In this document: piece after piece, positions 5,858 through 58,705 of the stretch | Numbering within the stretch: the stretch's first letter is position 1 | Layout of the letters: each line of letters starts with the position of its first letter | From: Fibrobacter sp. UWB2 | GTDB taxonomy: Bacteria; Fibrobacterota; Fibrobacteria; Fibrobacterales; Fibrobacteraceae | DNA length: 64,000 bases | Reading direction: 5' to 3' | NCBI RefSeq assembly: GCF_002210425.1 | Contig: NZ_MWQK01000007.1 | Location: 1 to 64,000 of the forward strand | The notes under the pieces: model-generated | Told to the model about the DNA's origin: nothing | What the model saw: only the letters and a program-made list of their open reading frames with translations | Database searches by the model: none | Made by a program: the position numbers and the translations under genes

Positions 5858-5930
5858 TACCCCCAAGCGGTTTCGAACCGCTGTTGCGGGAATGAAAATC
5901 CCGAGTCCTGGGCCACTAGACGATAGGGGC
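5858..5930 (-). tRNA. tRNA-Glu (anticodon TTC), copy 1
   Basis: Minus-strand sequence begins GCCCCTATCGTCTAGTGG. Anticodon stem-loop CGGGA-TTTTCAT-TCCCG gives TTC; T-arm AGCGG-TTCGAAA-CCGCT. Acceptor GCCCCTA pairs with TGGGGGT with G-U pairs at 1-72 and 6-67; discriminator A. CCA not encoded. Identical to copies 2 and 3. Confidence 0.95.
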
Positions 5931-5946
5931 GTTTTGTGTGAGGACA

Positions 5947-5974
5947 AATATAGGATTTTATAGAATAATGTCAA
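5947..5974 (-). promoter_or_regulatory. Promoter of tRNA-Glu copy 1
   Basis: On the minus strand: -35 TTGACA (5974-5969), 16-bp spacer, -10 TATATT (5952-5947). Confidence 0.85.
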
Positions 5975-6049
5975 GGGTGGATGAATAAATTTTTTTTGAG
6001 GGGGCGCGGCTTTTCATAGTCGACTTTTTATACCCTTTGTCGCGGTTAC

Positions 6050-6082
6050 AAAAAAAGACCGACTTTTCAGTCGATCTTTTTT
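6050..6082 (-). terminator. Terminator of tRNA-Glu copy 2
   Basis: A tract, GACCGACT-TTTC-AGTCGATC stem-loop (one internal mismatch), T tract, directly behind the tRNA on the minus strand. Confidence 0.8.
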
Positions 6083-6083
6083 A

Positions 6084-6156
6084 TACCCCCAAGCGGTTTC
6101 GAACCGCTGTTGCGGGAATGAAAATCCCGAGTCCTGGGCCACTAGACGATAGGGGC
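6084..6156 (-). tRNA. tRNA-Glu (anticodon TTC), copy 2
   Basis: Same 73 bases as copy 1, displaced by 226 bp. The only base changes in this array lie outside the tRNA genes. Confidence 0.95.
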
Positions 6157-6172
6157 GTTTTGTGTGAGGACA

Positions 6173-6200
6173 AATATAGGATTTTATAGAATAATGTCAA
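6173..6200 (-). promoter_or_regulatory. Promoter of tRNA-Glu copy 2
   Basis: -35 TTGACA (6200-6195), 16-bp spacer, -10 TATATT (6178-6173); identical to that of copy 1. Confidence 0.85.
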
Positions 6201-6274
6201 GGGTGGATGAATAAATTTTTTTTGAGGGGGCGCGGCTTTTCATAGTCGACTTTTTATACCCTTTGTCGCGGTTA

Positions 6275-6308
6275 CAAAAAAAGACCGACTTTTCAGTCGA
6301 TCTTTTTT
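6275..6308 (-). terminator. Terminator of tRNA-Glu copy 3
   Basis: Same hairpin as at 6050, directly behind the third tRNA on the minus strand. Confidence 0.8.
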
Positions 6309-6309
6309 A

Positions 6310-6382
6310 TACCCCCAAGCGGTTTCGAACCGCTGTTGCGGGAATGAAAATCCCGAGTCCTGGGCCACTAGACGATAGGGGC
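6310..6382 (-). tRNA. tRNA-Glu (anticodon TTC), copy 3
   Basis: Same 73 bases as copies 1 and 2. Its upstream flank differs (the repeat ends near 6390), so this may be the ancestral copy. Confidence 0.95.
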
Positions 6383-37043: not shown

Positions 37044-38195
37044 ATGAACCTGCAATCTATTCTCTCCTCTGTTCTGGACGAAGTTTACGAAAAAAATGAA
37101 TACCCCGCACTTGCGGCGCTTGAAAGCGAATGGACACATACCCGTCCGTTCGATGGCCTCCGCGTGCTGGTGGCAACCCCGATTTACCGCAACACCATGA
37201 CCGAATACCGCGCTCTTGTGGCGGGCGGAGCCGACCTTCTCGTGGGTTTTTCGGAATTTAACGACCCCGATGTCGTGGACTTTATGAGGGAATGGGGTGT
37301 ACCCGTCGTAACGCCTGCCGAAATGCTCGAAGCCGAATCTCGTGGCGAGTTTGTGGACTTGGTGCTCGACTGTGCGGGGCCTTTTGCTGTACTCCACCCG
37401 AAAATTGGCTTTGTGGAACTCACGCGTTCGGGTGTACACTATTATAAAGATGCCGAAAAACCGGTTTACGTCGCCGATAGCGGTATCGTCAAGCGGATCG
37501 AAACCTCCCTGGGTACAGGCGATGGCTATTTCCGCGGTCTCGAAAAATTGGGCCTTGGAGGCGATTTCGAAGGCAAGAAGTTATTGGTTTTTGGTAGTGG
37601 TAAAGTCGGTTCGGGGATTGCGCTCCAGGGCGTTCGCCGTGGCTGCAATGTGACCGTCGTGACGGACTTGAAACGCGGGCAGTCCCAACCCGCAGCTCCC
37701 GAAACAATGCCCGCAGGCGATTTTTCAGCGGTTTTAGAGCAAAATGGCGTGGATGTTGTCGACTGCCATGACTATGCGACTGTCGCCTCCTTGGTTGAAA
37801 ATTCCGATTTTGTTGTGACAGCGACGGGTGTCAAAAATGCCCTTGCTGCCCCGGAATTGGCTCCTGCTCTTCTCTCGACCAAAGCAATTCTTGCCAATAT
37901 GGGTGTCGAAGATGAATACGGCGAGGCTGTTCCCACGGAAAAAGTGCTCAATGATAAAGGCCCGCTGAACTTCATTCTCGAAGAACCTACGCACTTAAAG
38001 TACATCGATACGTCGCTTGCGCTCCATGCCGCCCTTGCCGAACGCTTGGTTCAAGAAACCGCGACTCTCGAAGATGGTCTCCATTTCCCGCCGCAAGAAA
38101 TTGAACAGCGCTTGCTCACTATTGCTATCCAAAATGGCGTCATTGGCCCTGAAATTTGCAGCATGCTTGGTGGCATTCCCACCGAAATGGACTAG
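37044..38195 (+). CDS. S-adenosylhomocysteine hydrolase-like NAD-binding protein
   Basis: 383 aa. The central part is a Rossmann domain of the AdoHcyase type: KKLLVFGSGKVGSGIALQGVRRGCNVTVVTDL (G-x-G-x-x-G, near residue 185-192) and later DFVVTATGVKNALAAPELAPALL, close to SAHH's DIFVTATGN. The N-terminal ~130 residues match the SAHH layout loosely (PIYRNTMTEYRALVAGGADLLV), but the residues that bind adenosine in true SAHH are not recognisable. Not expected to be the canonical enzyme; more likely a paralogue with other substrate. The Cys-His enzyme gene follows within 8 bases, so the two probably act together. Confidence 0.75.
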   Translation: MNLQSILSSVLDEVYEKNEYPALAALESEWTHTRPFDGLRVLVATPIYRNTMTEYRALVAGGADLLVGFSEFNDPDVVDFMREWGVPVVTPAEMLEAESRGEFVDLVLDCAGPFAVLHPKIGFVELTRSGVHYYKDAEKPVYVADSGIVKRIETSLGTGDGYFRGLEKLGLGGDFEGKKLLVFGSGKVGSGIALQGVRRGCNVTVVTDLKRGQSQPAAPETMPAGDFSAVLEQNGVDVVDCHDYATVASLVENSDFVVTATGVKNALAAPELAPALLSTKAILANMGVEDEYGEAVPTEKVLNDKGPLNFILEEPTHLKYIDTSLALHAALAERLVQETATLEDGLHFPPQEIEQRLLTIAIQNGVIGPEICSMLGGIPTEMD

Positions 38196-41893: not shown

Positions 41894-44800
41894 ATGGATA
41901 AAAAAACAATGAAGAACAGAATCAAATCCTTTAAATTGTGGGTGTTGAGCTGTGCTATGCTCATTGCCGGTGTTCAAAGTGCATCGGCATCATTGACCGG
42001 GTGTGAGGGAACCGTTTATCTAAAGTTGCCTGATAGTTGGACTGCCGCTTATTCTGCTGCCGGTGGCCAGTTTGTGGCTTTTTCAAAGAGTACGACGTAT
42101 ACCGGTTGGTACGAAATTAGCTCTACCAAAATCGGTGGTACGAACGGAGCTACAGAATTCTTTATCTCGAAGGCTCTGAATGACTATGGCCAGCAGGGTG
42201 GTATTACCAAGACCACTATTGGCGCCAATGTCCAGTTTGATCAGGGTAAGGGCTTCTCTTGCGCCGATTTCGGTACAAAGACGAACGAACTCTGGATTCA
42301 GCCTGATTTCTCGGATCCGACCAAGCCGTTAGTTCAGGGTGAACCGCCTGACGTCAAGTATTTCTATGTGTTCTTGCCGGATGACAAGATTTGGAAGAGC
42401 TCCGATCCTATCATTGTCGAAAATGGTAAAGAACGTAAGATGAACATTGACGAAAACTGCGGCTGGTACTACAGACGCTATGTCAATGAATCTCTCCCGA
42501 CCGAAGTCATTATCCGTCGTGATGATGATACCGAACTCAAGTATGCTATCGGTATGGATGGCGAAGCCGCTTATAACAACGGCGATGCAGCTACTCCGAT
42601 TGACTTGGAAGGCATGTTTGATAACTTTAAGTCGGATGCAACCTTTGCTGGCTCTCTCTTCTTTGTCGCTGACGAAAAGAAGGCTGCCGCACTTCCGAGT
42701 GATTTTGCTGGTTGGTATGTCGACAGACCGGATATTCACGGTAACTGCTCTTACAGCCTCGCTGCTATTATTTACGATACTGACGCTAGCTTGCATCCGG
42801 CATTCTCTTGCTACTCTGCCGGTGGTGAAGGTTGCCAGACTGGTGCTCAGGGTGTTGATCAGATGACTGCTGTTACCGCAATTAACGCTTGTATCGGTGT
42901 TACGACAGGCCTTGTGGAAAGCACCTTGGATAAGGCTACCAAGAAGCCGAAGCTCACGACGAAGGGTAAAAAGTGCTTCCTTGATGATAAATACTTCAAT
43001 CAGATGTTCAACTACACCGCTGGTGTGAACGAATTGACTTGCTTTGATATGCCGTTTAGCCGTGCAACAGATGGCAAATGGGAATTCAATTCCGATGACT
43101 ATGTCAGTCCGGGGCTGAAGATTGAAGTTCCGGGTGGTTTCTACCCGGCAGAAGCTACGGACGCCCTCAAGCTTGAAGAAGCTAAGGCTGGCCAGACTCC
43201 GGTTCCGGCTGCCCGTACCAAGCGTTGGGCTCAGGGTCCTGCTTACTATGGTGCCGCTCTCCGCGCCATTGATCCGGCTACGGAAATGCCTGTTCTTGAC
43301 GTCTATTGCAATGGCCCAGGTTGGAAAAAGGGCTTTGATTGTGAAGGTGTATTTGGTGATGGTGGCGAAACTGAAACCCGCATTCGTGACGACCTGGGAC
43401 TTACAAATGCTGATCTGATTATTGGTTGGGACGATGCTAATAGCGCTCCTGAAGGTTGGCCTCTTTTCCTCCCCAATTCTGAAACTAAGGCAACTGCAAC
43501 TGCTACATCTAAGTCTTCACGTTGGGAATCTAAGGAAGGTGTTGCTTCTGGCAATGGTGGCCGTAACCAGCACTTCTGCTTCGAATCTCACGCTAACTTC
43601 CGTTTCAAGCCGGGTCTGAAGTTCAACTTCCGCGGTGACGACGACATTTGGGTCTTTATTGATAACAAGCTTGCTGTGGACCTTGGTGGTACTCACCTTG
43701 CAGCTCCGGGCTATGTGGACTTGGATACGTTCATGCCGAACGCCAAGACCGACTCTACCTACGATATCGATATCTTCTTCTGCGACCGCCGTACGACGAT
43801 GAGTAACGTCCGTATCAAGACGAACATGTTCATCGAACAGAATACGGGTATTGAATACGAAGGCTTGCAGAACCTTGAACAGTGGAAGCTCACTGGCGAT
43901 AACGAATTCGAACTTTGCTTTACCCAGTCCGGTGCCGGTAACTGCGCTGCCCAGGTGGGTGCCGCAAACACAAAGGCCTGCGGTGATGCCATTAAGGCCG
44001 CCGGTCATACCATTGCTTACCAGTTCACCAGAAATGATCCGACTGGCTCTGCTCCTGGTTCCGTGATTGTTTCTGAAGAACAATTCGCCGATAATCCGGT
44101 TCAGCTCGAAGGCATTATCGACGTGACGAACCCGGGTAAGCCGGTTATCAACGAAAAGAAGTTGATGGAAAGCCTTTCTCAGGGTACGTACTATCTGCGC
44201 ATTAGGATTGATACCGAAATTGCAACGATGTCCTGGACCATCAAGGGTAGCGTTGGTCTTACTTCTCGTAACGCTGTCGTTGAAGCTGATGGCAAGACTG
44301 GTCCGGAAATCCCGTTTGTCTCTAGCGCTATGGCTTCGGACAACAAGACTACTGCTGACGGCATGATTCGCCTCCTCGTCGCTCCGATTGTGGATCCGTG
44401 CGCAGGCAATGCAACTTGCACGACTCCGCTCAAGTTGAACCCGTCTGTCGGTGACGAATACTCCTTGGTATCCACTAATACAAAGGCTATCATTTACAAG
44501 ATGGTCAATGGCGAGCTTGTGGATATCGGTAGCAAGACTCAGAAGATTGGCTCAAGTGGTGTCGATACCATTTACGTCACGGTTCCGTTCACTGAATTCG
44601 AACTCAGCGATGTTGAAAAGGTGACTGTCTATGTCAAGCAGAGCTCTCTCAAGGCTGAACTCACCTTCTTCACTCCGAAGATTGTGTTTGTGACCTCCGC
44701 GACCTCCTTGGATCAGCCCGATATGACCAAGGACCTCGAAAAGATGAAGAGTGAAATGGTAGACTTCTACATCCTCGCCCTTGACCAGAACAACAATCCG

Positions 44801-46549
44801 TGCACGACCTGCAGCTTTGATTTGAACCGTGGTTCTCAGACTTCTCCGGGTCTCAAGATTGTTACTACCGCCGATGGCTCTCTCCCGCGTGTCGAAAATG
44901 GCCGTGCAACGATTACCGTCTATTCTGAACTCACGTACGAACGTGGTGGTACGAATGGTGTTGCCTCCCTCCACTTGACGGGTGCGGCTCCGAATTTGAT
45001 GTCTGCCCTCTATCCGAACTTGATCTTTAGCGAACCGCCGGTACCGCTGCCGAAGTTTGCTGATATCTTTGACGTCCATGGTGCGATTCCGGCTTCTGCA
45101 ATGAATATTCCGAGCCCGTACTTTAGCGCTCAGAACGAATACCTCGATGGTATCGCAGACTCCATTGTCATCTACTACGGTCGTGAATTCCACAAGGACT
45201 CCCTCCCGGGTAAGATTGCAATCTTCTGGGAAGATGACACTAAGGATTCTGTGCTCTTTGAAGGTGCCGAAATTGCCGCTGGTGCTTATTGCGGTGTCGC
45301 TGCTGGTGCATCTGCTGACACCTTGTGCGCTCCGAAGATCACTCTCGGTGGCAAGAAGCTCTCCAAGAAGGTGAAGACCGATGGTATTGGTAAGATTAAG
45401 TCCTGGGCTACATTCATGGCCCGTGGCCAGGTTGTGACGAAGGATTACTCTTGCTCGATTTACGATCGTATTGCTCCGATTATCATCGGTGCTAGAGCAA
45501 CTAACGAAGTTATCGGTGGTATCGAATATATGCGTCTGAAGATTACATTCTCCGAAAAGATTGCTAAGACGACCGAAGGTATCGCTGCTGGTAACGACGT
45601 GTTCTCCTTCTACATCAACAATAGCAAGACTCCTGATTTTGCCGAAACGCTCCCGCTTGCTGTGACATCCTCTGTTCCGGATCAGGCTGCGGATAAGACC
45701 GTGTCCTTGCTCTACTCCAAGAGTGGCGTGTTCCCGCAGTCCGGTGACTACATCCACTTCAGAAGTCTCGCCGGTGTCGGCCTTGTGACGGACCAGTCTG
45801 ATTACGCCGCTGCTCTTGATGCTGCTACCCATCGCCCGGCAGATGACGTTAACTTCAAATGGAACGTTGCTCCTGGCTACGATCCGGCTGGTTCTGGCCG
45901 CCTCCCGTCTCCGTGGGCTCTCGTCGAAGGTGAAGTGAAGGCCTACGCTGCTAGAATCGTTCCGCCGGCAATGGGTGGCATCCCGAAGACTCCGAGCGAA
46001 ACGGCAGCTCTCGAACCGTTCGAAATCTTTGCCTATGACGCAACCAAGACTGAAGATGATTTCAGAAATGAAATCCTCGCTGGTCAGGGTGAATTCGCTA
46101 ACTACGCATTTATCCCGCACGGTTGGTTTGTCAAGAGCGATTTGGGTTCCTTGATTGAATCTGATACAACATTTGTTAATGCCAACAAGAAGAACGTGTT
46201 CTTCGACTACGATCTCCGCTTCTTCACGAACTTGGGCTCTCATGTGGCTAGCCTCAAGGGTCGTATCTACTGCGATGACGACGAAAACATGGCTCGCAAC
46301 AAAAAGTACTACTTCGGCGGCGCCGGTCACAACTGCGTTGAAAACCGTAAAAACTTCTTCATCGTGTGGAACATGAAGTCTGATAAGAACCGCCTCGTTG
46401 GTACGGGTGCTTACATCTCCAAGCTCAATTCCTATGTTCAGCTTGATAACTTCGGTAAGAAGAACAAGATTGAAAAGACTGAAGTTTGGGGTGTCCGCCA
46501 CACCGCTAAGACTCCGGGTAGCTACCCGACGATTAAGGTTGGTCAGTAA
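41894..46549 (+). CDS. Fibro-slime domain secreted protein (adhesion-type)
   Basis: 1551 aa. Signal peptide MDKKTMKNRIKSFKLWVLSC... ending near ASA (residue ~33). Residues ~560-650 form the fibro-slime domain (TIGR02148): FNFRGDDDIWVFIDNKLAVDLGGTH, then IDIFFCDRRTTMSNVRI, resembling PA14-type lectins with an Asp-Asp-Asp cluster that may bind Ca2+. Twenty or so Cys in the N-terminal half suggest disulfides. Three to four Ig-like beta domains follow to ~1250 and a C-terminal domain after. Fibro-slime proteins of F. succinogenes are known as cellulose-induced outer-membrane proteins thought to help adhesion. GGAGAG precedes the start; own terminator follows. Confidence 0.93.
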   Translation: MDKKTMKNRIKSFKLWVLSCAMLIAGVQSASASLTGCEGTVYLKLPDSWTAAYSAAGGQFVAFSKSTTYTGWYEISSTKIGGTNGATEFFISKALNDYGQQGGITKTTIGANVQFDQGKGFSCADFGTKTNELWIQPDFSDPTKPLVQGEPPDVKYFYVFLPDDKIWKSSDPIIVENGKERKMNIDENCGWYYRRYVNESLPTEVIIRRDDDTELKYAIGMDGEAAYNNGDAATPIDLEGMFDNFKSDATFAGSLFFVADEKKAAALPSDFAGWYVDRPDIHGNCSYSLAAIIYDTDASLHPAFSCYSAGGEGCQTGAQGVDQMTAVTAINACIGVTTGLVESTLDKATKKPKLTTKGKKCFLDDKYFNQMFNYTAGVNELTCFDMPFSRATDGKWEFNSDDYVSPGLKIEVPGGFYPAEATDALKLEEAKAGQTPVPAARTKRWAQGPAYYGAALRAIDPATEMPVLDVYCNGPGWKKGFDCEGVFGDGGETETRIRDDLGLTNADLIIGWDDANSAPEGWPLFLPNSETKATATATSKSSRWESKEGVASGNGGRNQHFCFESHANFRFKPGLKFNFRGDDDIWVFIDNKLAVDLGGTHLAAPGYVDLDTFMPNAKTDSTYDIDIFFCDRRTTMSNVRIKTNMFIEQNTGIEYEGLQNLEQWKLTGDNEFELCFTQSGAGNCAAQVGAANTKACGDAIKAAGHTIAYQFTRNDPTGSAPGSVIVSEEQFADNPVQLEGIIDVTNPGKPVINEKKLMESLSQGTYYLRIRIDTEIATMSWTIKGSVGLTSRNAVVEADGKTGPEIPFVSSAMASDNKTTADGMIRLLVAPIVDPCAGNATCTTPLKLNPSVGDEYSLVSTNTKAIIYKMVNGELVDIGSKTQKIGSSGVDTIYVTVPFTEFELSDVEKVTVYVKQSSLKAELTFFTPKIVFVTSATSLDQPDMTKDLEKMKSEMVDFYILALDQNNNPCTTCSFDLNRGSQTSPGLKIVTTADGSLPRVENGRATITVYSELTYERGGTNGVASLHLTGAAPNLMSALYPNLIFSEPPVPLPKFADIFDVHGAIPASAMNIPSPYFSAQNEYLDGIADSIVIYYGREFHKDSLPGKIAIFWEDDTKDSVLFEGAEIAAGAYCGVAAGASADTLCAPKITLGGKKLSKKVKTDGIGKIKSWATFMARGQVVTKDYSCSIYDRIAPIIIGARATNEVIGGIEYMRLKITFSEKIAKTTEGIAAGNDVFSFYINNSKTPDFAETLPLAVTSSVPDQAADKTVSLLYSKSGVFPQSGDYIHFRSLAGVGLVTDQSDYAAALDAATHRPADDVNFKWNVAPGYDPAGSGRLPSPWALVEGEVKAYAARIVPPAMGGIPKTPSETAALEPFEIFAYDATKTEDDFRNEILAGQGEFANYAFIPHGWFVKSDLGSLIESDTTFVNANKKNVFFDYDLRFFTNLGSHVASLKGRIYCDDDENMARNKKYYFGGAGHNCVENRKNFFIVWNMKSDKNRLVGTGAYISKLNSYVQLDNFGKKNKIEKTEVWGVRHTAKTPGSYPTIKVGQ

Positions 46550-46568
46550 TCGGCTCCTGTAGAATTTG

Positions 46569-46597
46569 AAAAGCCTCCCTTCGGGGAGGCTTTTTCT
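46569..46597 (+). terminator. Terminator of the fibro-slime gene
   Basis: AAGCCTCCC TTC GGGGAGGCTT stem followed by TTTC. Confidence 0.88.
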
Positions 46598-46608
46598 ATA
46601 TTTATTAT

Positions 46609-47010
46609 ATGCGAAAGATTTTAATTGCACTTTCTTTATGCGCTATGGCTTGGGCCGGATCGCCAACTGATTTGGATTCTCTTTTCCGCGGTAACGAGTA
46701 CAAGCCGACGCTCAGCGCTTCTCTCCGCGATACGACAAGCAACTCTGCAGTGCCCGCAAAGGTTACGGGCAAGAACGATAAGGCTGATGGATTCTTCATG
46801 CTCCAGTTCGAAGCTGTCGGTGATTTTGACGCCGCTCAGCGCCGCAAGGCCCAGCTTTCTGCAAGCACGGGTTACACCATCCAGGTGGTGTTCGATCCTC
46901 CGTTCTACAAGCTTCGCGGCGGTGGATGGACAAAGCGCAAGGTCGCCGAAGACAAGGCTCGCGAACTCTCCGCATACAACATCAACGCCTTCGTCGTCAA
47001 GCTTCGATAA
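46609..47010 (+). CDS. Exported SPOR-domain protein
   Basis: 133 aa. Signal peptide MRKILIALSLCAMAWAG. C-terminal ~75 residues form a SPOR domain (FMLQFEAVGDFDAAQRRKAQLSASTGYTIQVVFDPPFYKLRGGGWTKRKVAEDKA): a ferredoxin-like RNP fold that binds denuded glycan strands at the division septum. It starts 12 bases after the slime gene terminator, so it probably needs its own promoter (TATATT at 46597-46602, without a good -35). Confidence 0.9.
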   Translation: MRKILIALSLCAMAWAGSPTDLDSLFRGNEYKPTLSASLRDTTSNSAVPAKVTGKNDKADGFFMLQFEAVGDFDAAQRRKAQLSASTGYTIQVVFDPPFYKLRGGGWTKRKVAEDKARELSAYNINAFVVKLR

Positions 47011-47059
47011 GCGCGTATAAAAGCGTTAAACGCACAAAGAGCAGGCTTCGCCTGCTCTT

Positions 47060-47084
47060 TGTCATTCCACTTCGTGGCATGACA
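47060..47084. repeat. Palindromic element, TCATTCCAC variant
   Basis: TGTCATTCCAC-TTC-GTGGCATGACA, preceded by a GCAGGCTTCGCCTGC hairpin (47041). Part of a cluster of four elements in 47040-47212. Confidence 0.7.
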
Positions 47085-47100
47085 GCTGCGGCTCGGCAAT

Positions 47101-47122
47101 AAGAATGAGTATACTCATTCTT
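47101..47122. repeat. Perfect 22-bp palindrome
   Basis: AAGAATGAGTA is followed at once by its exact reverse complement TACTCATTCTT, with no loop. This is operator-like symmetry rather than a hairpin. No gene start is within 100 bp. Confidence 0.85.
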
Positions 47123-47139
47123 GCTGCACTCGCCTTGCA

Positions 47140-47169
47140 TGTCATTCCCGGCTCCGACCGGGAATCTCC
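47140..47169. repeat. Short palindromic element, TCATTCCCG family
   Basis: TGTCATTCCCG-GCTCCGAC-CGGGAATCTCC. Forms a pair with the element at 47183. Confidence 0.85.
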
Positions 47170-47182
47170 ATCTCGTATAAAA

Positions 47183-47211
47183 GGAGATGCCCCATCAAGT
47201 GGGGCATGACA
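47183..47211. repeat. Short palindromic element, GGGGCATGAC variant, inverted
   Basis: GGAGATGCCCCA-TCAAG-TGGGGCATGACA, the reverse orientation of the family. Lies downstream of the large minus-strand gene and could end its transcript. Confidence 0.8.
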
Positions 47212-47232
47212 TTAAGATGAAACCTCCGTCTA

Positions 47233-50200
47233 TTACATCACGCCGAGGGTTTGCTTGATGCTGTGGGCGTCGTTTAGGAGGGCGCGTTCTTCGGGCGGCA
47301 CGTAGGCCATCTTGCGTTCGCTGTCGGGCCTCTTGGAGCGGTCGCGCAGCACGATGCTCTTGTTTGTGCGCGAGTAGAAGAACGGTCCGGTTTTCACGAA
47401 CTGCTTCTGGTGCAGCGCCTGCTTGATGGCTTCGCTTAATATGGCGCTAGTCTTTGCGTTCTGCTCGGCGTTGTGCAGTTCCAGAATCCTTTGCAACAGG
47501 AGCTCTCCGTGAATTGGGGACTCGCTATCCACGTAGAACTTGAGCTCTTCAATGAGATTTTCCACTGGGATTTCTGCAATCGGCTTGTTGCTTGCGTTGG
47601 CGGGGTGCTTCACGCTGTACGGTTCGACTTTTAGAGAACTATCCTGTTCTGCATCGTCGAGCGGGATTTCTTCTTGCGGTGGCGGTGCGACACTCTGTTC
47701 AATTGCAATCGTTGTGATGAGATTTTCTTTCTCGTCTGCGTTGGAAATGTTCCAAAGCGGGAGCCACATGTTGAGGACCTTCCAGCCGAGTCTCGAAAGT
47801 GCGTTCGGGCGCGTGTATTCGCGGTCTTCGACCGATTCCTTGTAAGGGGCACAATTGCAGTCGCACTCGATGACGGCGAGCGAACGCTTGCTATTGTTGG
47901 CGTCAATGACGACTGGACCTACAGGAATGTTGCCTGTGGCGATGCAATCCTTAAAGGTTATTGATTCCTTTATGAAAACGTCTTTAATTTGTGCGTCAAG
48001 AACGGATTCCGGGGTGTCAATATGGGATGTTCCAATTTCGGAACTCTTGAGAGAACGGACCCATTCCTGGAACAGATTGGGCTTCACGCTTGCGAGCTTT
48101 TCTGCATCTTCGCTCGTCATGAACAAACATAGGCTTTGCTTGGCGAGTGTTGTGCAAATCGAGAGCTTGCGGTTCTCGGCGATGCCTGAAGCCTTGTCGA
48201 TGTCGGGGCATGCAAAAATGACATCACGGTACAAGTCTACGGCACGTTCTGCAGTCTTTATGTAGAATTTGTTTGTCAAATTCCCTTGCGTAAAGAACTT
48301 TGCGATGCTTGAGGCATTCGCCGCTTTTGAACCTTTTTCTAAAAGTTCATGAATGGCAATTTCAATTTCATTGCAGAGCGCTTGGCTCGAGGCTACAATT
48401 CCAAGCGATTGGCTTGGATTCTTTGTGGCGTGCTGTATGGCCTTTTCGGCAATGGAATGCACTTTGTCGTGAACGATTTTCAGCGTTTGCAGTTTGCTTG
48501 TAGGTGAAACTGAATTCGGGAACTGCGAAATTTCGTTGTTGTAAATTTTGCTGTTTGCAAAAGCGAATAGCGACGGGTCTGCGTATTGTGCTGTATAGCC
48601 AATGACTCGTGTCGGGATTCCCTTGCGGAGCGCTGCCGAAAGAACGTTGTCCTTAAAGAAAATCGACGGCGATGAAATTTCCATGTTGCAAGCATCCGAC
48701 GGGAGCATCTCGAGCGTGGGAGCGCACGGATTTCCAAAGAGGATGACCTTCTTTGTTTTTAGAATTCCGGGCATGGCTTCGGCGATGGTCATACAGTCTG
48801 CATCGAGGAATAGCGTAACGTCAGACGGCTCGAAGTTGGAATCGTAAGTCTCTGACAACGTGACAATTTGCAAGCTTGCGGGATCCTTTTCGGCGCACTC
48901 GTGAACGGTACGGAAGTTTGCGTTGCTGAACTGGTCCAACAGCGTTCTGTATTGCTTGCCTTGTTGCTTTCTGTTTCTTGCAGACGGACTGAAAAGTTCC
49001 GGGCACTCGGCGGTTGCGGCCTGCATCTGGCGATTTGTCCAGGCACGTGCAAATGCCATGGCGAGTTCCTTGTTCGCATTCTTGGTATCGCTTACGAATT
49101 GCGCAAGATTCTCGCACGGCGAATCGCTGATGTTTTCCATGTGCTCGCGGATTTGCAAATAAACGTCTTGAGCGCTCCAATGCGTTGACCAGAGCCCGAT
49201 TTTATCGAGCCATTGGTCGATGTTTTGCGTTTCTAGGGACGGACTCAGATTGAGGGCTTTGCTTATGCTCTGGAGTGTTTTTTGGAGTTCTTCAAAACTT
49301 GTCTGAATGTTGTCCAAACTTTCGACGAGCGGTCTGAACAGATGCCATTTGGCTAGCAGCTGGAGCAGATAATCGTGCTGGTCGCTTTCCTTGATGCGGG
49401 CACGGAATACATAGTAATGGCGGATTTTGTCTGCAAGGTCTTTCCAGTCGGTCTTTTCATATTTCCAGTCCCTGCCGAACAGACGTGCGGCGAGAACGGA
49501 AGAATCCTTGTACTTGCGCCTGTATTCCTGAATTTCGATAAGTTTGTCGGCCTGCTCGATGAGCATGTCATCGGAGGTGATGCTCTTGGGATCCTTGAAA
49601 AGGCTGAGAAGTATTCGCTTGGGCCTGCGGTAATGATCCGAGAGCGCCTTGAGCGCAGAACTCAGGCTGCTTTCAAATTCTTTGCGGGCAGCAAGGATGT
49701 TGGCGTCGATGGCTTCGTCGGTGAAAATGTCGGAACCTTTGCGACGATAACTTGACCAGCGTGCACCTGCATTCGGTAAGTCATTTAGGTCATCCTGGTA
49801 GGCAATCCAGCCGTTGGAATGGAGATCCCAGTCTTCAAAGCCGGGCATTTCGCTATCGAAGTTTTTCTTGAATACGCTAACCAAAGCGAGCGCATCCGAA
49901 ATCTTGAAACCGTTAGTGTAGAGCTTGGACTTGTTTACGCTTTCGATAAACGGCTTGACTGTTTCAATCAAATTTTTTGCACATTCCAGGTCTTCGCCAA
50001 TTTGGCTCTTGCGTTCTTGCGAAACGGCGGGCAGCGTGATTCCTTGGAGTGCGTTGAAAACCTGGACCCCGTTCTCGTTAAAGAACAGCTGCGCCAGTTG
50101 TTCAAGGCTTGATTGCATGGACTTGAACTTTTTATAGCGCACATCTTCGATATTCTTGAAAAGGTCACTTGCAAACTTTGTCTTAACTGGCCTTAAATTT

Positions 50201-51318
50201 GCAATTTCGTCAAGCAGTTCTGTGAGCTTCACACCACTTGGCTTGAGCGGAAAATTGACTGCATCGTAGTACGAGACGAGCTTTGCTCGGGTTTCGCTCA
50301 ATTGCGTTTTTACGGTATCGCGTTCTGGCCCTTGGAACGAACGGAATGGCGGTTTCCATGCGTTTTCGAAGTTGTATTTGGTGATGGCACGACGGCTTAC
50401 AACGCAGACTTTTTTCTTTTGTTCGATGAGGTCTGCAACGATATTGACGGCGGCTTTGGATTTTTCGCTCCCGGGGAGCGTTTGTATGGCATATGCAGAA
50501 ACGTTTGCATCAAGAGCGTCGATAACGGCCTTGTTCGTTTGAGAATCGGTCGTGTACGGGAAGTAATGATCTGCAGGCGTAAAAACGTGGTCGTAGGGGA
50601 GTTCTTCGAAAAACGATGGCTTGGGCAAGAACCCGTCATTGCCAATCGTTGCAATGAAAAACTCGTTGTTTGCGGCCTTGGCGGTTGTCCAGCATTCACT
50701 TGTCAGCTTTTTTTGAAGACCGATTCTGTTTGTGCTGTAAAAGGTGATGCAATAGCCGTTACGGGTAAACTTCCAATCCGTTTTCGGGGCAATCTTTTTC
50801 TCGAGGGCATCAAAGAATTTTTGGATGGCAAAAGTCCCGTTTTTCCAGAAATCCGTGGCCATGGGAAACTTGATGCTTTTGTCGAGTGTCGGGAGTGCAA
50901 TATTTTCGATGGGGGCGCGTGCAGAAATGGCGACGGTGTCGTTTTCTGCGTTGTATGTAAGCGGGATGAGGATGGCGGGCGCGAGGCTCTTTTCGCCCCA
51001 CTTGATAAAGCCCGTTGCCATATACAAATCCTGGTTGCAAAAGTCTTCTGCTTTGGACTTGAGGACCTTGCGGAATTTGTCTAGGTCGGCCGCTTGTTTT
51101 GCTTCGTCATATTTTGCGGATACGGGGAAGAACTGCGCAAGTGCACGCGGTTTAGCCTCGGTTTGCCAAGATTCGAAAAACTGGTCCCCGTTGCCTAAAA
51201 GCAGTGGAGACTGAAATTTATTCTTTTGCGAAAAGCTGAGCAAACGGTCTTTGCTATCAAAGACTGCTGCCTCTTCGCGGATTTTTTCAATGGTTGCGGA
51301 CACGGACGTTGATGCCAT
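47233..51318 (-). CDS. DUF4011/Vsr-type large helicase homologue with broken ATPase motifs
   Basis: 1361 aa. N-terminus (~1-200) carries a DUF4011-like stretch (DRLLSFSQKNKFQSPLLL). At 255-300 the Q-motif-like TTDSQTNKAVIDALDAN precedes TLPGSEKSKAAVNIVADL, where SF1 helicases have GPPGTGKS: a Gly is Glu. Motif II reads TLFLDADCMTIAEAMP (near 838; DE is DA), motif III GNPCAP (near 861; expected GDPxQL), motif VI LSICTTLAKQSL (near 1056; expected VAxTRAR), so the Arg finger is gone. Then a Vsr-like nuclease (MTES_1575 type) at ~1148-1187: IECDCNCAPYKESVEDREY...LGWKVLNMWLPLW, and a DUF3320-like tail (~1240-1320). The frame is long and clean, so the gene is selected for something other than ATP hydrolysis. 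Architecture recalls DUF4011-helicase-Vsr defence proteins. Confidence 0.8.
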   Translation of the reverse strand: MASTSVSATIEKIREEAAVFDSKDRLLSFSQKNKFQSPLLLGNGDQFFESWQTEAKPRALAQFFPVSAKYDEAKQAADLDKFRKVLKSKAEDFCNQDLYMATGFIKWGEKSLAPAILIPLTYNAENDTVAISARAPIENIALPTLDKSIKFPMATDFWKNGTFAIQKFFDALEKKIAPKTDWKFTRNGYCITFYSTNRIGLQKKLTSECWTTAKAANNEFFIATIGNDGFLPKPSFFEELPYDHVFTPADHYFPYTTDSQTNKAVIDALDANVSAYAIQTLPGSEKSKAAVNIVADLIEQKKKVCVVSRRAITKYNFENAWKPPFRSFQGPERDTVKTQLSETRAKLVSYYDAVNFPLKPSGVKLTELLDEIANLRPVKTKFASDLFKNIEDVRYKKFKSMQSSLEQLAQLFFNENGVQVFNALQGITLPAVSQERKSQIGEDLECAKNLIETVKPFIESVNKSKLYTNGFKISDALALVSVFKKNFDSEMPGFEDWDLHSNGWIAYQDDLNDLPNAGARWSSYRRKGSDIFTDEAIDANILAARKEFESSLSSALKALSDHYRRPKRILLSLFKDPKSITSDDMLIEQADKLIEIQEYRRKYKDSSVLAARLFGRDWKYEKTDWKDLADKIRHYYVFRARIKESDQHDYLLQLLAKWHLFRPLVESLDNIQTSFEELQKTLQSISKALNLSPSLETQNIDQWLDKIGLWSTHWSAQDVYLQIREHMENISDSPCENLAQFVSDTKNANKELAMAFARAWTNRQMQAATAECPELFSPSARNRKQQGKQYRTLLDQFSNANFRTVHECAEKDPASLQIVTLSETYDSNFEPSDVTLFLDADCMTIAEAMPGILKTKKVILFGNPCAPTLEMLPSDACNMEISSPSIFFKDNVLSAALRKGIPTRVIGYTAQYADPSLFAFANSKIYNNEISQFPNSVSPTSKLQTLKIVHDKVHSIAEKAIQHATKNPSQSLGIVASSQALCNEIEIAIHELLEKGSKAANASSIAKFFTQGNLTNKFYIKTAERAVDLYRDVIFACPDIDKASGIAENRKLSICTTLAKQSLCLFMTSEDAEKLASVKPNLFQEWVRSLKSSEIGTSHIDTPESVLDAQIKDVFIKESITFKDCIATGNIPVGPVVIDANNSKRSLAVIECDCNCAPYKESVEDREYTRPNALSRLGWKVLNMWLPLWNISNADEKENLITTIAIEQSVAPPPQEEIPLDDAEQDSSLKVEPYSVKHPANASNKPIAEIPVENLIEELKFYVDSESPIHGELLLQRILELHNAEQNAKTSAILSEAIKQALHQKQFVKTGPFFYSRTNKSIVLRDRSKRPDSERKMAYVPPEERALLNDAHSIKQTLGVM

Positions 51319-51353
51319 GTCTCGAATATAAATTTTTTTTAACCTAATTGTCG

Positions 51354-52250
51354 TTAAAGTTGATCCATAATTATGGATATCGCGTCAACGAGGGCGATGG
51401 GAGCGTCGCTTTCTGTGAGGTGGGCCTTGTGGCAGACGCGGCCAAAAAGCATTTCGGGCGTAATGCCGGCTTCTTTGTCTTGGCGCAGGCTGTGGGCGAG
51501 TTCGCGCTTGGAAAGCTTCTTGTTGTTTGCATCGACGATGAGCGGGTGGTGCAAGTAGACAGGGCGTTCTGTGCGGCCTAGCGCTTCCATGAGCGCAATC
51601 TGGCGGGCGGTGGAATTGCGGATATCCTCGCCCCGGACAATGTGCGTGATTTGCTCGTCGATGTCATCGACACAGACGGCGAACTGGTATGTCCATTGGT
51701 TGTCGCGGTCGCGGATGGGGAAGTCCCCGCATTGGAGTTTCGGGTTTTCGTGAAAGTCCCCTAGACGCAGGTCGTGCCAATCGATGAATTTATTCGGAAC
51801 GATAAAACGGAGGTTATGCGGAGCAGAATTGCTATTCAAGACTTCACTGGGTCCTTCGCTTTCGCTCAGGATGACAAGATTTTTGCATTTGCCCTGATAA
51901 ACGATTTCACCGGTTTCGCTTTGTGGGTTTTCGGCGAGGAGCTGTTTGCGGCTGCAATAGCACGGGTAAACTAACGATTTTTCTTTTAACTTTTGGAGGG
52001 CGGCTTCGTAGACTTGTCCGCGTGCACTTTGTATGCTCTCGGAATCGTATTTAAACCCAAGCCAAGCCAAATCTTCTCGGATGCCAGCAATATAGGCGGG
52101 TCGTGCGCGACTTTGATCATGGTCTTCGATTCGCAAGTGGATCTTTAAGTTCCATTTTTTTGCCGCTGCCCACACATAAAGTGCCGAAAGCAAATGGCCT
52201 TCGTGAAGGTATCCTGTGGGGCTTGGTGCAAATCGAATTTTTCCGGACAT
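51354..52250 (-). CDS. gluQ: Glutamyl-Q tRNA(Asp) synthetase, with repeat-derived insert
   Basis: 298 aa. Activates Glu and attaches it to queuosine 34 of tRNA-Asp. HIGH-type GYLHEGHL (residues 13-20) and KMSKS-type KLSKR are present; zinc ligands fit C97, C99, Y118 and C122. No anticodon-binding domain, as in E. coli GluQ. Residues ~125-135 (LVILSESEGPS) are encoded by the palindromic element at 51847-51876, close behind the zinc-site Cys122. The frame continues undisturbed afterwards (PHNLRFIVPNKFIDWHD). Lies 36 bases upstream of the large helicase-like gene, in the same direction, possibly co-transcribed. Confidence 0.93.
   Translation of the reverse strand: MSGKIRFAPSPTGYLHEGHLLSALYVWAAAKKWNLKIHLRIEDHDQSRARPAYIAGIREDLAWLGFKYDSESIQSARGQVYEAALQKLKEKSLVYPCYCSRKQLLAENPQSETGEIVYQGKCKNLVILSESEGPSEVLNSNSAPHNLRFIVPNKFIDWHDLRLGDFHENPKLQCGDFPIRDRDNQWTYQFAVCVDDIDEQITHIVRGEDIRNSTARQIALMEALGRTERPVYLHHPLIVDANNKKLSKRELAHSLRQDKEAGITPEMLFGRVCHKAHLTESDAPIALVDAISIIMDQL
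51847..51876. repeat. GTCATCC-type palindromic element inside gluQ
   Basis: CTGGGTCCTTCGCTTTCGCT then CAGGATGAC; reverse orientation of the element at 33095. In frame. Confidence 0.8.
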
Positions 52251-52913: not shown

Positions 52914-53480
52914 TTGCTAAAATTTGCGGTAGTCGATCTCGAAACGACCGGCGGACATGGTGAAGATAATCGAATAATGGAAATCGGAATCGCCCTGATG
53001 GACGGTTCCGAAATTGTTGAAACGTACCACGCGCTTGTAGACCCAGGAAAGCCGATAACGCCGTTTGTGCGAGAGCTTACGGGCATCACCGACGAGATGG
53101 TTAGTGGACAACCGCAATTTGGCGTGATTGCTGAGCATGTGGCTGCTTTATTGCAAGACCGCATTTTTGTAGCGCACAACGTTCAGTTCGACTGCAAGTA
53201 CATGACTGCAGAACTGAAGCGTTGCTGTATTAAGTTTAACCCTGCGAGACTTTGTACGGTAAAGCTTTCGCGGCGTGTGTTCCCGGGGCAACCGAGCTAC
53301 AGTTTGCACAAACTCACGGAATCGCTAGGGCTCCCTGATTTTAACCATCACCGTGCTTTGGACGATACGCTTGCGGCGGCTGCCATTTTGAGGTCTGCGC
53401 TGGAGAAGGTCGGAGAGGCGGGTGTGATGAAGAACGTCGTGAATATTTCCGTCGCCAAGAAACAGGCTTTTAGTAAGTAG
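52914..53480 (+). CDS. DnaQ-like 3'-5' exonuclease (DEDDh family), second paralogue
   Basis: 188 aa from a TTG start at 52914 (read MLKFAVVDLETTGGHG). Exo I VVDLETTGG, Exo II FVAHNVQFDCKYM (near 84-96), Exo III HHRALDDTLAAAAIL (near 141-155) with His and Asp in place, so an active nuclease is expected. Closest in look to DNA polymerase III epsilon or its RNase T-like relatives. It differs from the paralogue at 11216 in length and inserts. Six bases behind the exported protein gene. Confidence 0.88.
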   Translation: MLKFAVVDLETTGGHGEDNRIMEIGIALMDGSEIVETYHALVDPGKPITPFVRELTGITDEMVSGQPQFGVIAEHVAALLQDRIFVAHNVQFDCKYMTAELKRCCIKFNPARLCTVKLSRRVFPGQPSYSLHKLTESLGLPDFNHHRALDDTLAAAAILRSALEKVGEAGVMKNVVNISVAKKQAFSK

Positions 53481-55049: not shown

Positions 55050-57572
55050 TTACTCTTCACTCTTTTTCTTCGCTCCGAATCGGCGGGGCTTGAATTCACG
55101 CGGCGGGAAATTGAACTTGAGCTTGCCCTTCACGAGCGTGAGGTACGCGTCGAACAGGCGGCGAGTCTTATTGCTGCGGAATCCCTTGATAAGCGAAGTC
55201 TTTTCGCCGGCGAGCAATTTCTTGATGTCATCAAGCGGAATTTCCTTGCCGAGGAGAATCTTCGGGAGCGAAAGCCCGCTTGGTTCCTTCTTCACGTAGC
55301 TTTCGGAGACGTAGCCCGTGAGCGTTTCATAGACGTCGGAGCCGTCTACCGGAGACTTGCCGATAACTTCACCGAGCTCGATTTCTTCGGGCTTTTCTTC
55401 AAAGACAAATTCAACTTTGTTCTGGTCATTGATGATGAGGCCTGCTGAAAATTCAGCGCCCTTCTTGCTGCGGAAACCTGTGAGCGGTCCAATCTTGCGC
55501 TTGGTCAAGAGCTCTACGATTTCACTTTCGGACAAGTGCTTGCCGCCCACAATTTTGCGGATGACGATGCCATCTTCGGTGGTGTAGCGGCTGACCGTTT
55601 CGAAAACTTTCTTGCCGTTCACGGGGCTGAAGCTTGCTTCGTCAGTCGTGCTTTCTTCCTTGAATCCCTTGATGTTCTTCACCATCGTCTTTGTCATTTC
55701 GACGATGCCGTTCATGAACGCTTCGCGAGATTCCTTGCCCTTCGAGATGAGGTCCATCTTGTATTCCCATTCGCCGGTAAGTTCCGGGCTGGTGAGGGCT
55801 TCGCAGTTCATGGCGGAGAGGACTTTGATGAGGTCGAATGCCTTTGCTGTCGGGATCATTTCCTTGCCGTCGCGGACAACGTACTTGTCGCTCACGAGCT
55901 TTTCTATGATGGCGGCGCGTGTGGCAGGCGTTCCGAGACCGCGTTCCTTCATGGCGTCACGCAGTTCGTCGTCTTCCACGAGCTTACCTGCACTTTCCAT
56001 CATCGACAAAAGCGTACTTTCGGTGTAGTGTGCTGGCGGCTTGGTAAAGTCTTCCTTCGATTCAATTGCAAGCGTCTTGGCGGTGTTGCCGTTCAGCTTT
56101 GGAATGTTCGATTCTTCGTCGGATTCCTTGCCGTAAATCGCCTTGAAGCCCGGGTCCACGAGAATCTTGCCTTCGGTGATGAAGGTCTCGTTTTCGACGG
56201 TTGTGATGCGGGTCGTGTTCAAGTACTGCGCTGGCGGGAAGAACACCGCGATAAAGCGCTGGCAAATCATCGTGTAGATTTTTTCTTCGGCTTCGGAGAG
56301 TCCCTTCGGCACGACGCCTGTCGGGATGATGGCGAAGTGGTCCGAAATCTTCGAGTTGTCAAAGACCTTCGGCGTGCGCTTCACGTAGTTCTTGTCCAAA
56401 GCCTCTTGAGCGAACTTGGCGAGCGGACCTTCAATCTTGCCGAGGGTGGCTTTCACCGGAGCGACGTAATCTTCGGGCAAGCAACGGCTGTCGGTACGCG
56501 GGTATGTGGTTGCCTTGTAATGTTCGTAAAGCGATTGTGCGATGGAAAGCGTTGTCTTGGCGCTGAATCCAAAGCGGTTGTTCGCTTCGCGCTGGAGCGT
56601 GGTGAGGTCATAGAGCTGGCCGCACTTCTGCTGGCTCGGGGCTGTGGTCTCTTCGATGGAGCCTGTTTTGCCCTTGCACTTGGCGAGAATTTCCTGAGCG
56701 CGGGCTTCGTCAAAAATCTGCTTGACGCGGTCTTTGTTGTTTTCTTTATCGACGGTGAACCACTTGCCTTGGTAACCGGCTCCGGAGTTGTCGAACGAGG
56801 CTTCAATGGTCCAGAACTTTTGCGGCACAAAGCGGTTGCGTTCTTCTTCGCGCTTCACGATAATGGCAAGCGTCGGGGTCTGCACGCGTCCGCACGGCGT
56901 AATCTGGAACCCGCCCATAGAGCTGTTGTAGGCGGTGAGGCCACGGCTGCCGTTCATGCCTACGAGCCAGTCGGCTTCGCTACGGCAGAGGGCGGCGTTT
57001 CTCAAGTTGACCATGTCTTCTTCGGTACGGAGGTGTTCAAAGGCATCCTTGATGGCGGCAGGCGTCATGCTCTGCATCCAAAGTCTCTTGAACGTCTTGC
57101 CCTTGAAGTTCCCCTTGAGGATGTAGTCCACGATGTAATAGAAAATCAGTTCACCTTCGCGGCCCGCATCGCACGCGTTTATAATCGTCGTCACGTCCTT
57201 GCGCTTGATGAGCTTGCCGAGGGCGGAAAGATGGGCTTTAGTGGTCGGGAGGGCAACGAGCGGGAACTTTTCGGGGAGCATGGGGAGCGTCTTCATGTCC
57301 CATGCCTTGTAGCGTTCGTCAATATCCTTCGGGTCGGCGATACCAACGAGGTGACCGATCGCATGGCTTACGATGGTCGTGTCGCTTTCATAATAGGCGG
57401 TTTCTTTCTTGAAGGACTTTGCACCGAGCACTTTGACGAGGTCGGCTGCCACGCTAGGTTTTTCCGCGATGATGAGCGTCTTACCTTCGATGGCCGCTTT
57501 TGCCGTTTTGGTGGCGGTCTTCTTTGTAGTGGTTTTAGTTGTCGCCTTAGTTGTTGTTTTAGTCGTTGCCAT
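55050..57572 (-). CDS. topB: DNA topoisomerase III (type IA)
   Basis: 840 aa from ATG 57572, two bases behind the stop of the glycosyltransferase; a GTG at 57584 is also in frame. N-terminal Thr/Lys-rich tail (MATTKTTTKATTKTTTKKTA) of ~27 aa, probably disordered. Toprim domain with IIAEKPSVA and DAGREGELI (D-x-x-x-E type metal site), catalytic Tyr in TTYPRTDSRCLPED. Cuts one strand and passes another; decatenates. Two C-terminal repeat-like domains (Topo_C_Rpt type: VFETVSRYTTEDGI..., VYETLTGYVSESYV...), each with a GFRS(N/K)K signature. These replace the Zn fingers of TopA. Coupled to the glycosyltransferase gene. Confidence 0.95.
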   Translation of the reverse strand: MATTKTTTKATTKTTTKKTATKTAKAAIEGKTLIIAEKPSVAADLVKVLGAKSFKKETAYYESDTTIVSHAIGHLVGIADPKDIDERYKAWDMKTLPMLPEKFPLVALPTTKAHLSALGKLIKRKDVTTIINACDAGREGELIFYYIVDYILKGNFKGKTFKRLWMQSMTPAAIKDAFEHLRTEEDMVNLRNAALCRSEADWLVGMNGSRGLTAYNSSMGGFQITPCGRVQTPTLAIIVKREEERNRFVPQKFWTIEASFDNSGAGYQGKWFTVDKENNKDRVKQIFDEARAQEILAKCKGKTGSIEETTAPSQQKCGQLYDLTTLQREANNRFGFSAKTTLSIAQSLYEHYKATTYPRTDSRCLPEDYVAPVKATLGKIEGPLAKFAQEALDKNYVKRTPKVFDNSKISDHFAIIPTGVVPKGLSEAEEKIYTMICQRFIAVFFPPAQYLNTTRITTVENETFITEGKILVDPGFKAIYGKESDEESNIPKLNGNTAKTLAIESKEDFTKPPAHYTESTLLSMMESAGKLVEDDELRDAMKERGLGTPATRAAIIEKLVSDKYVVRDGKEMIPTAKAFDLIKVLSAMNCEALTSPELTGEWEYKMDLISKGKESREAFMNGIVEMTKTMVKNIKGFKEESTTDEASFSPVNGKKVFETVSRYTTEDGIVIRKIVGGKHLSESEIVELLTKRKIGPLTGFRSKKGAEFSAGLIINDQNKVEFVFEEKPEEIELGEVIGKSPVDGSDVYETLTGYVSESYVKKEPSGLSLPKILLGKEIPLDDIKKLLAGEKTSLIKGFRSNKTRRLFDAYLTLVKGKLKFNFPPREFKPRRFGAKKKSEE

Positions 57573-57574
57573 TT

Positions 57575-58705
57575 TTATTTCCACTTAAAACGTCCGAACA
57601 GTCCGAACAGTACGGCCAGTACGGTAAAGGGGGCGTGGATGAACTCAACCGGGATGCACCACTTGAGGAGGTGTTCCTGCTTGAATATTTTGAGCCCGCG
57701 AATAATGAGAACCATGTCGCCTACGCTCTTGCACAAGAACGCTATCAATGTGGCGACGAAAATTTTGAAACTGAAAATCGAGAATGCTGCGGTGATGCAG
57801 AGCATGGTAAGAAACAGGAACACCATCGAGAGCACAAAGACGATTTTTGGGGTATAGTAGATGGTCTTTGATGCCCAGCGTTTGCGCTGTTCCCAGAGGG
57901 CCTTGAGTGTTTCCTTGCCGCTTGTGGTGACGAACGTGGCGGGCGTGATGCAGTAGCGCATGGCCCATGGACGGTCGGCTGCCAGTTTTTGCATCAGGAG
58001 GTCGTCGTCTCCGCTCTGGATCTTGATGACGCCCGTAAAGCCGTTCACGCTCTGGAAGAAACTCTTGCGGTAGGCGAGGTTGTTGCCAGTGCTTGTGAGC
58101 GGGAGGTGCATGGCGAGGCCTGCTGTGCCTGCGATGCGGTAAATCAGCGTTTCGACCGCCTGCATGCAGATGATGAACGGCGAACTCTTGTCGGTCGGAA
58201 TGTACGAATGCCCGGCGACAAGTTCAATCCCCGGTTCAAATTCCTTGACGAGGTACTTGATCCAGGACGGCTGCACGATGCAGTCGGCGTCTGTGAGGCA
58301 GAGAATTTCACCGTTGCAGGCGTCAATGAGCTTCGAAAGAGCCTGCTTTTTAGGGCTCACGCCTTCGGGGATGGAATCAATCGTGAGCACATGGAGGCGT
58401 TCAAACTTTGCTTCGTATTCCGCGAGAATCTTCGGGGTGTCGTCCGTGGAGCGGTCATCGGCTACCCAGACCTCCCATTCGCCCTCGTAATCTTGCGAGA
58501 GGACGGAATCGAGCGTTTCGCGGATGCCTTCGGATTCGTTACGGGCCGCAATCAGGATGCTCACCTTCGGGAGCGGTTCTGGGTCGGCAAAGCCTTCGCG
58601 CACTCGTCCGAGCGCACGGTAGAACCGCACTTCTAACCCGAGATAGAAGATGGCGAGTATTGCCAAAAGCCCGATGGCTATGTATGTCAAAACCGTAAGG
58701 AACAT
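57575..58705 (-). CDS. Membrane glycosyltransferase, family 2
   Basis: 376 aa. N-terminal transmembrane helix (LTYIAIGLLAILAIFYLGL), then a GT-A domain: VSILIAARNESEGI, WVADDRSTDDTP, CLTDADCIVQPSW (DxD type), GDDDLLMQK and EQRKRWASK (Q-x-x-R-W motif of processive GT2 enzymes). C-terminal half has three to four helices in the membrane. Similar to enzymes that make exopolysaccharide or glycolipid; product unknown. Read before topB in one transcript, which is functionally unexpected and probably accidental. Confidence 0.9.
   Translation of the reverse strand: MFLTVLTYIAIGLLAILAIFYLGLEVRFYRALGRVREGFADPEPLPKVSILIAARNESEGIRETLDSVLSQDYEGEWEVWVADDRSTDDTPKILAEYEAKFERLHVLTIDSIPEGVSPKKQALSKLIDACNGEILCLTDADCIVQPSWIKYLVKEFEPGIELVAGHSYIPTDKSSPFIICMQAVETLIYRIAGTAGLAMHLPLTSTGNNLAYRKSFFQSVNGFTGVIKIQSGDDDLLMQKLAADRPWAMRYCITPATFVTTSGKETLKALWEQRKRWASKTIYYTPKIVFVLSMVFLFLTMLCITAAFSIFSFKIFVATLIAFLCKSVGDMVLIIRGLKIFKQEHLLKWCIPVEFIHAPFTVLAVLFGLFGRFKWK

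Follow-up and report, generated by a model that had tools for sequence, protein, structure and literature searches.

What function is left to a protein with the domain order of a helicase-nuclease when its catalytic motifs are broken? This question is raised by an open reading frame (ORF) of Fibrobacter sp. UWB2, which lies at 47233-51318 on the minus strand of the window analysed here (the first 64,000 nucleotides of contig NZ_MWQK01000007.1), starts with ATG and encodes 1361 amino acids (aa) uninterrupted by stops. A first-pass annotation, made from the letters of the window, had described a pseudo-helicase joined to a preserved Vsr-like nuclease region, not decaying and possibly belonging to an anti-phage defence family. 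Comparison with relatives established that the ORF is homologous over its full length to proteins of that kind, that the catalytic residues are gone from helicase and nuclease alike, and that the gene is conserved under purifying selection and in synteny. By its sequence the ORF is a double pseudoenzyme of the DUF4011-superfamily 1 (SF1) helicase-Vsr-DUF3320 type, and it may serve as a nucleic-acid-binding scaffold.

Loss of both catalytic sites from a retained architecture

With hhalign, the profile of the family could be aligned with one built from intact plasmid-borne or accessory relatives along residues 2-1346 (1322 columns; probability 100, E 1.4e-96), and the PADLOC profile PDC-S37 matched the ORF at E 1.4e-98. 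Since this homology extends over the full length, the identification is not in doubt, and the DUF4011-type helicase landmarks recognised by eye in the first-pass annotation are real. Pfam DUF4011 was weak at the N-terminal region (residues 66-129, 50932-51123; E 0.0025), with 22.8 bits for the ORF with neighbours against a cut-off of 22.2 in a genome-wide profile search; DUF3320 was also weak (E 0.037), and MTES_1575 (Vsr-like restriction endonuclease) matched residues 1118-1204 at E 2.7e-7 with 31 bits, below its cut-off of 38.2. Among defence profiles, NCBIfam ProA (NF058533) gave E 4e-55 and 187 bits against a curated cut-off of 1500, and Hhe gave E 1.6e-14 in PADLOC and E 8e-12 with 43.4 bits in NCBIfam (NF042953), against a curated cut-off of 2000. 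Searching the PDB by sequence with the ORF returned no match, and in the literature searched PDC-S37 is named nowhere and DUF4011 only rarely. By descent and by its identical domain order we assign the ORF to the DUF4011-helicase-Vsr (PDC-S37-like) superfamily; judged by its motifs it falls outside the superfamily as an enzyme, failing at Walker A and at motifs II, V and VI.

To read the motifs, 91 distinct orthologues were aligned with 11 intact proteins from plasmids or accessory loci, one intact relative serving to locate the columns. Walker A and motifs II, V and VI are all broken in every orthologue, whereas each of the 11 relatives has the four intact, and the claim of a pseudo-helicase therefore stands. 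Walker A reads TLPGSEKS (residues 280-287, 50458-50481) in place of GPPGTGKS in both motif and profile alignments; as had been noted, it is broken, with the first and last Gly gone and a lone K-S retained. The last Gly, found in 11/11 outgroups, is E, D, A, S, Q, F, N or L in the family and never G. The Walker Lys (K286) is present in 72 of the 91 orthologues and replaced by W, A, L, G, N, V or R in the other 19; no orthologue has a canonical P-loop pattern at this place, and that of genus g24 has a GKT, but in a shifted loop. For motif II (residues 838-842, 48793-48807), a gapless profile alignment sets LDADC on DEASQ, so that Asp is replaced by Leu and Glu by Asp. The first-pass reading of DA for DE was thus right in effect, although its alignment was not: DE is absent from all 91 orthologues, which carry LDAD, LDAE or something close to these, D839 being invariant or nearly so. 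Motif III (GNPCAP, residues 862-867, 48718-48735, for canonical GDxxQLP, here GDDRQLP) and motif VI (SICTTLAK, residues 1053-1060, 48139-48162, for NVLISRAK) were both read correctly. In the latter TTLAK stands against ISRAK and the Arg finger has become Leu, as in 81/90 orthologues, the remaining 9/90 having His.

Beyond that annotation, which also left the strand unassigned, motif V is broken as well: RAVDLYRD (residues 1025-1032, 48223-48246) replaces NVQGDERD, the Q and E of QGDERD being absent in all orthologues (VDLYRD here), the Gly left in 15 and R-D kept. Likewise unnoticed in that annotation, a segment after motif Ia that contains ELHSNKANK is deleted family-wide. Because the breakage is at the same position in all genera, the simplest reading is that the loss is older than their divergence. 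Invariance is found at old structural positions (PG282-283, G862, R1031-D1032, E1151, D1153, W1179 and W1185), whereas positions of the ATP site drift; the invariant residues specific to the family number 67. Within the helicase core, conservation is best in a helical insert (residues 495-632, 49423-49836), which is common to the intact relatives.

The Vsr/PD-(D/E)xK-fold domain (residues 1105-1209, 47692-48006) was delimited by the MTES_1575 match and by modelling. In outgroups the nuclease site reads SPFEE...FxIDLAI...GIECDGAxYHSS...RDRDRLRQ. The catalytic Asp of IDLA, present in 11/11 outgroups and 0/91 family members, is Gly1134 in the ORF (47917-47919) and Gly in 77/91 orthologues, otherwise Gln, Ser, Cys, Glu, Leu or Ala. 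The His of YHSS is replaced by Arg, Pro or another residue and remains in 1/91; the helix Glu pair (FEE) is not conserved, and the RD of RDRD has become ED. Still invariant by motif alignment is E1151-x-D1153 (47860-47868), with E1151 and D1153 in 90/90 orthologues and W1179 and W1185 likewise in all. The active site of E. coli Vsr is the pair D51/H69 (PMC11879112), and the apparent equivalents of both are absent from the family. On these alignments the nuclease site is destroyed.

The fold, in contrast to the site, appears to be retained. A model of residues 1079-1361 built from nine sequences had a mean predicted local distance difference test score (pLDDT) of 74 and an alpha-beta-beta-beta-alpha-beta topology. 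It matched I-Bth0305I (Z 10.0, root-mean-square deviation 3.0 A, 94 aligned residues) and E. coli Vsr (1cw0; Z 8.5, 3.3 A, 98 aligned), and FASTKD4 at Z 8.3, the mitoribosomal RAP-type chains and FASTKD4 together spanning Z 8.3-9.9. These Z scores are moderate, yet several independent Vsr-type entries rank at the top; the absence of a fold family from the list of structural matches was not counted as evidence. The DUF3320-type C-terminal tail (residues 1245-1318, 47365-47586) is a predicted winged helix (Z about 7 over 65-70 residues) and keeps the residues common to the intact enzymes. The nuclease region described as kept is therefore kept in its modelled fold and its ExD pair but not in its PD-type Asp, its YHSS His or its helix Glu, and what is joined to the dead helicase scaffold is a dead nuclease, the catalytic Asp being absent in every orthologue.

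A core gene at one fixed locus

Orthologues were searched for in 61 relatives and then in 168 genomes of the phylum. The gene was found in 78/80 Fibrobacter genomes, the two without it having a completeness of 65% and 71%. Another 15 genomes with the gene came from six further genera of the family (g18, g19, g20, g22, g23 and g24). It was not detected in genera g15, g16, g17 and g21 or in one of three g24 genomes, and none of the 168 phylum genomes had it outside the family. A lone decayed copy is ruled out, as 93 genomes carry the gene. Nearly all orthologues are full-length open frames (a stop occurs in draft G027 and a split frame in draft G116), and between pairs of the 37 Fibrobacter orthologues gathered first, identity goes down to 39%. 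For close pairs dN/dS (the ratio of nonsynonymous to synonymous rates, Nei-Gojobori) was 0.07-0.12, values that are approximate since dS is near or above 1 for most. These sequence comparisons place the gene under purifying selection and bear out the earlier view that it is not decaying.

In the gene tree, computed with a quick method (LG+G4) whose program flagged long branches, every genus with several rows formed one clade, and the degenerate set formed one clade apart from the intact proteins (Shimodaira-Hasegawa approximate likelihood ratio test, 100). The family profile found no relatives of the pseudo branch among phage and IMG/VR sequences, and tblastn gave a single distant match among phage sequences. 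Intact relatives occur on plasmids and in viral contigs (four in the latter), some near other defence genes. Four Fibrobacter genomes (L041, L042, L093, L094) carry rare accessory DUF4011 helicases with intact GPPGTGK[ST] and DEASQ, phylogenetically apart from the core pseudo copy; a profile search of the UWB2 genome found no further DUF4011 protein. Instead of the patchy, mobile distribution typical of defence systems, the gene has a single syntenic locus, and by these sequence data it is a vertically inherited, lineage-wide core gene and not a mobile defence gene.

The gene order is TopB, NagZ, a DnaQ-like exonuclease with a small protein on the opposite strand, GluQRS, the pseudo-helicase, a SPOR protein and a fibro-slime protein. 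GluQRS (51354-52250, minus strand) is the upstream neighbour, separated by a 35-bp gap; the DnaQ-like 3'-5' exonuclease (52914-53480, plus strand) and DNA topoisomerase III TopB (55050-57584, minus strand) are further conserved neighbours. This order is conserved throughout Fibrobacter and largely in the other genera, with no defence neighbours. Present-day membership in anti-phage defence, as first proposed, does not agree with a conserved housekeeping locus (GluQRS, TopB, DnaQ-like exonuclease, NagZ) in seven genera, nor with Hhe and ProA scores so far below their curated cut-offs. GluQRS adjoins the gene in nearly all genomes. An obligate functional pair of the two was ruled out, as one g20 genome (G160) keeps the gene without GluQRS and a g16 genome (G095) has GluQRS without the gene.

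Five nucleotides before the ATG, a TATATTC element (51324-51330, minus strand) follows an A-rich tract (tract and element, 51316-51333) and is probably a leaderless-type promoter; its conservation extends to every genus read, and each orthologue inspected has TATATT and an A-rich tract a few bases 5' of the ATG. The A-rich/TATATT[C] pattern occurs 32 times in the whole genome versus 3 for the reversed control, a ten-fold difference, and is likely an ordinary leaderless-type promoter signature of Fibrobacter. With such a pattern before its ATG, the pseudo-helicase gene is therefore probably transcribed on its own. The same pattern precedes window genes at 37044, 46609 and 258 (plus strand) and 60504 (minus strand).

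Across 42000-50500, in the region of the fibro-slime and pseudo-helicase genes, nucleotide identity forms a valley of about 0.55-0.80 between flanks of about 0.90-0.97. The dS of the pseudo-helicase exceeds that of TopB or the DnaQ-like gene several-fold; recombination and faster mutation are both possible sources. The fibro-slime/PA14-domain protein (41894-46549, plus strand; 1551 aa) occupies the same place in most genomes, has about 30-57% identity even among close relatives and a dN/dS of 0.3-0.4, and is probably a fast-changing surface protein. Elsewhere in the window, three tandem tRNA-Glu(ttc) genes lie at 5858-6382 (minus strand), their starts 226 bp apart.

Possible functions of the double pseudoenzyme

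We consider it about an even call that the ORF is an ATP-independent scaffold or sensor that binds nucleic acid in genome maintenance, working in the manner of RecC. An ancestor within the Fibrobacteraceae would have acquired a phage-defence-type DUF4011-helicase-Vsr protein, which would then have lost all residue sets for ATP hydrolysis and DNA cutting while retaining its fold, its helical insert and its winged-helix tail; the gene, with a promoter of its own, would have become fixed at a single place in the chromosome. Without ATP, nucleic acid would most likely be bound jointly by the RecA-like lobes and the Vsr fold, both dead, and by the winged helix, probably in genome maintenance, much as the dead domains of RecC or the Deinococcus PriA pseudohelicase work; binding, scaffold function and pathway alike are inferred. 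Several observations weigh against this proposal. The gene is not indispensable, as follows from the four genera and the g24 genome that do without it. Most orthologues are slightly acidic overall, as are the intact relatives. The deleted ELHSNKANK segment near motif Ia was likely DNA-contacting in the ancestor, so that DNA binding need not resemble the ancestral mode. Finally, structure prediction, which recovered the Vsr fold and the winged-helix tail, gave for the helicase core (AlphaFold, residues 205-1361, five sequences) a pLDDT of 35, and that model was discarded.

In a rival reading the protein has a residual role in defence: catalytically dead, it would act as a sensor or decoy, binding foreign or phage DNA (or else the phage inhibitors of active cousins), with the effector encoded elsewhere. 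This reading arises because the close relatives are all of defence type (PDC-S37, ProA and Hhe are the nearest profiles, and intact relatives lie on plasmids and viral contigs) and because silent sites diverge fast, the gene lying in the low-identity valley as fast-evolving genes do. We consider it unlikely, given a single copy fixed among housekeeping genes in seven genera, a single-origin tree that is vertical genus by genus, low dN/dS, and a genome that holds no intact DUF4011 partner. A role in RNA binding has to be weighed because a catalysis-free Vsr fold serves in the RAP domains of FASTK proteins: the RAP-type chains and FASTKD4 rank beside Vsr in the structural matches, and a function at tRNA or the ribosome would fit the place behind GluQRS. 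The RAP matches, however, reflect a common fold only, and the separation of the two genes in g20 and g16, together with the promoter-like element of the gene itself, indicates that the two need not work together; this reading seems to us rather improbable.

An active enzyme with rewired sites could be imagined from the lone Walker Lys, the LDAD motif and the ExD pair of the nuclease, in view of the frequency of K286, the near invariance of D839, E1151 and D1153, and the GKT of g24. The Lys is nevertheless exchanged for seven different residues in 19 orthologues, and P-loop spacing, the Asp-Glu pair, the Arg finger and the PD Asp occur in none, which makes this reading very improbable. That the gene has been caught in decay would agree with the breakage of every catalytic motif and with the interrupted frames of G027 and G116. 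We count it as refuted by some 90 intact long ORFs over a wide range of identity, by a dN/dS near 0.1 and by the conserved promoter element and synteny.

A role as stand-in for a missing RecC or AddB was ruled out, as recC-recB-recD are grouped at another locus of the same genome (L161) and RecC is also present in most genomes without the pseudo-helicase gene. The nuclease model PF12705 found no match in the UWB2 genome, and RecB (L161:5543-9400), which it missed, carries a GFIDLLF...DWKS motif; on this sequence evidence we attribute the miss to a sensitivity gap of the model and not to a lost RecB nuclease. Domestication of phage-defence enzymes to core functions has often been proposed, but cases in which both catalytic sites are gone and a whole 1360-aa architecture is kept have rarely been seen. 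With the same double loss fixed in seven genera, the function that replaced catalysis is open to direct test by a single deletion. DUF4011 or Vsr annotations in Fibrobacter should not be taken to mean a helicase, a nuclease or a defence gene.

Comparison with known systems

PDC-S37 and the plasmid-borne DUF3320-DUF4011 helicase-Vsr proteins (e.g. WP_111068318.1 of Azospirillum) have domain order and full-length homology in common with the ORF. They are mobile, 1540-1990 aa long, and have an intact P-loop, DE, QGDERD and SRAK as well as the FEE/IDLA/ECDG/YHSS sites, whereas the ORF is shorter, has both sites dead and is found at one fixed locus. The anti-phage proteins Hhe and ProA are weakly homologous to the ORF in the helicase core and the Vsr region; the ORF differs from them in the absence of catalytic residues and in its scores.

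The PriA pseudohelicase of Deinococcus radiodurans lacks ATPase activity and retains DNA binding (PMC4504706); in Deinococcus, as here, helicase motifs were lost lineage-wide and the protein was retained, but PriA belongs to another helicase family and has no nuclease domain. FASTKD4 is a Vsr-like protein reported to be without nuclease activity (PMC11879112). In FASTKD4 and the RAP domains a Vsr-like fold persists without nuclease activity, as proposed for the ORF, but these are eukaryotic organellar RNA-binding proteins that have no helicase lobes.

The closest likeness in working is to the RecC subunit of RecBCD, an SF1-helicase-like and PD-(D/E)xK-like protein with both sites dead that acts as a DNA-binding scaffold. 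The helicase lobes of RecC are likewise dead. Its nuclease domain has been inactivated and serves to guide single-stranded DNA (PMC1185551). In profile scans the ORF had no match to the RecC families PF04257 and TIGR01450, and its origin is independent, from another SF1/nuclease family. Tentatively, the ORF could be the second case of a RecC-like protein, arrived at independently: a helicase-nuclease of defence origin that has been stripped of both activities and may now be a core nucleic-acid scaffold of the whole family.

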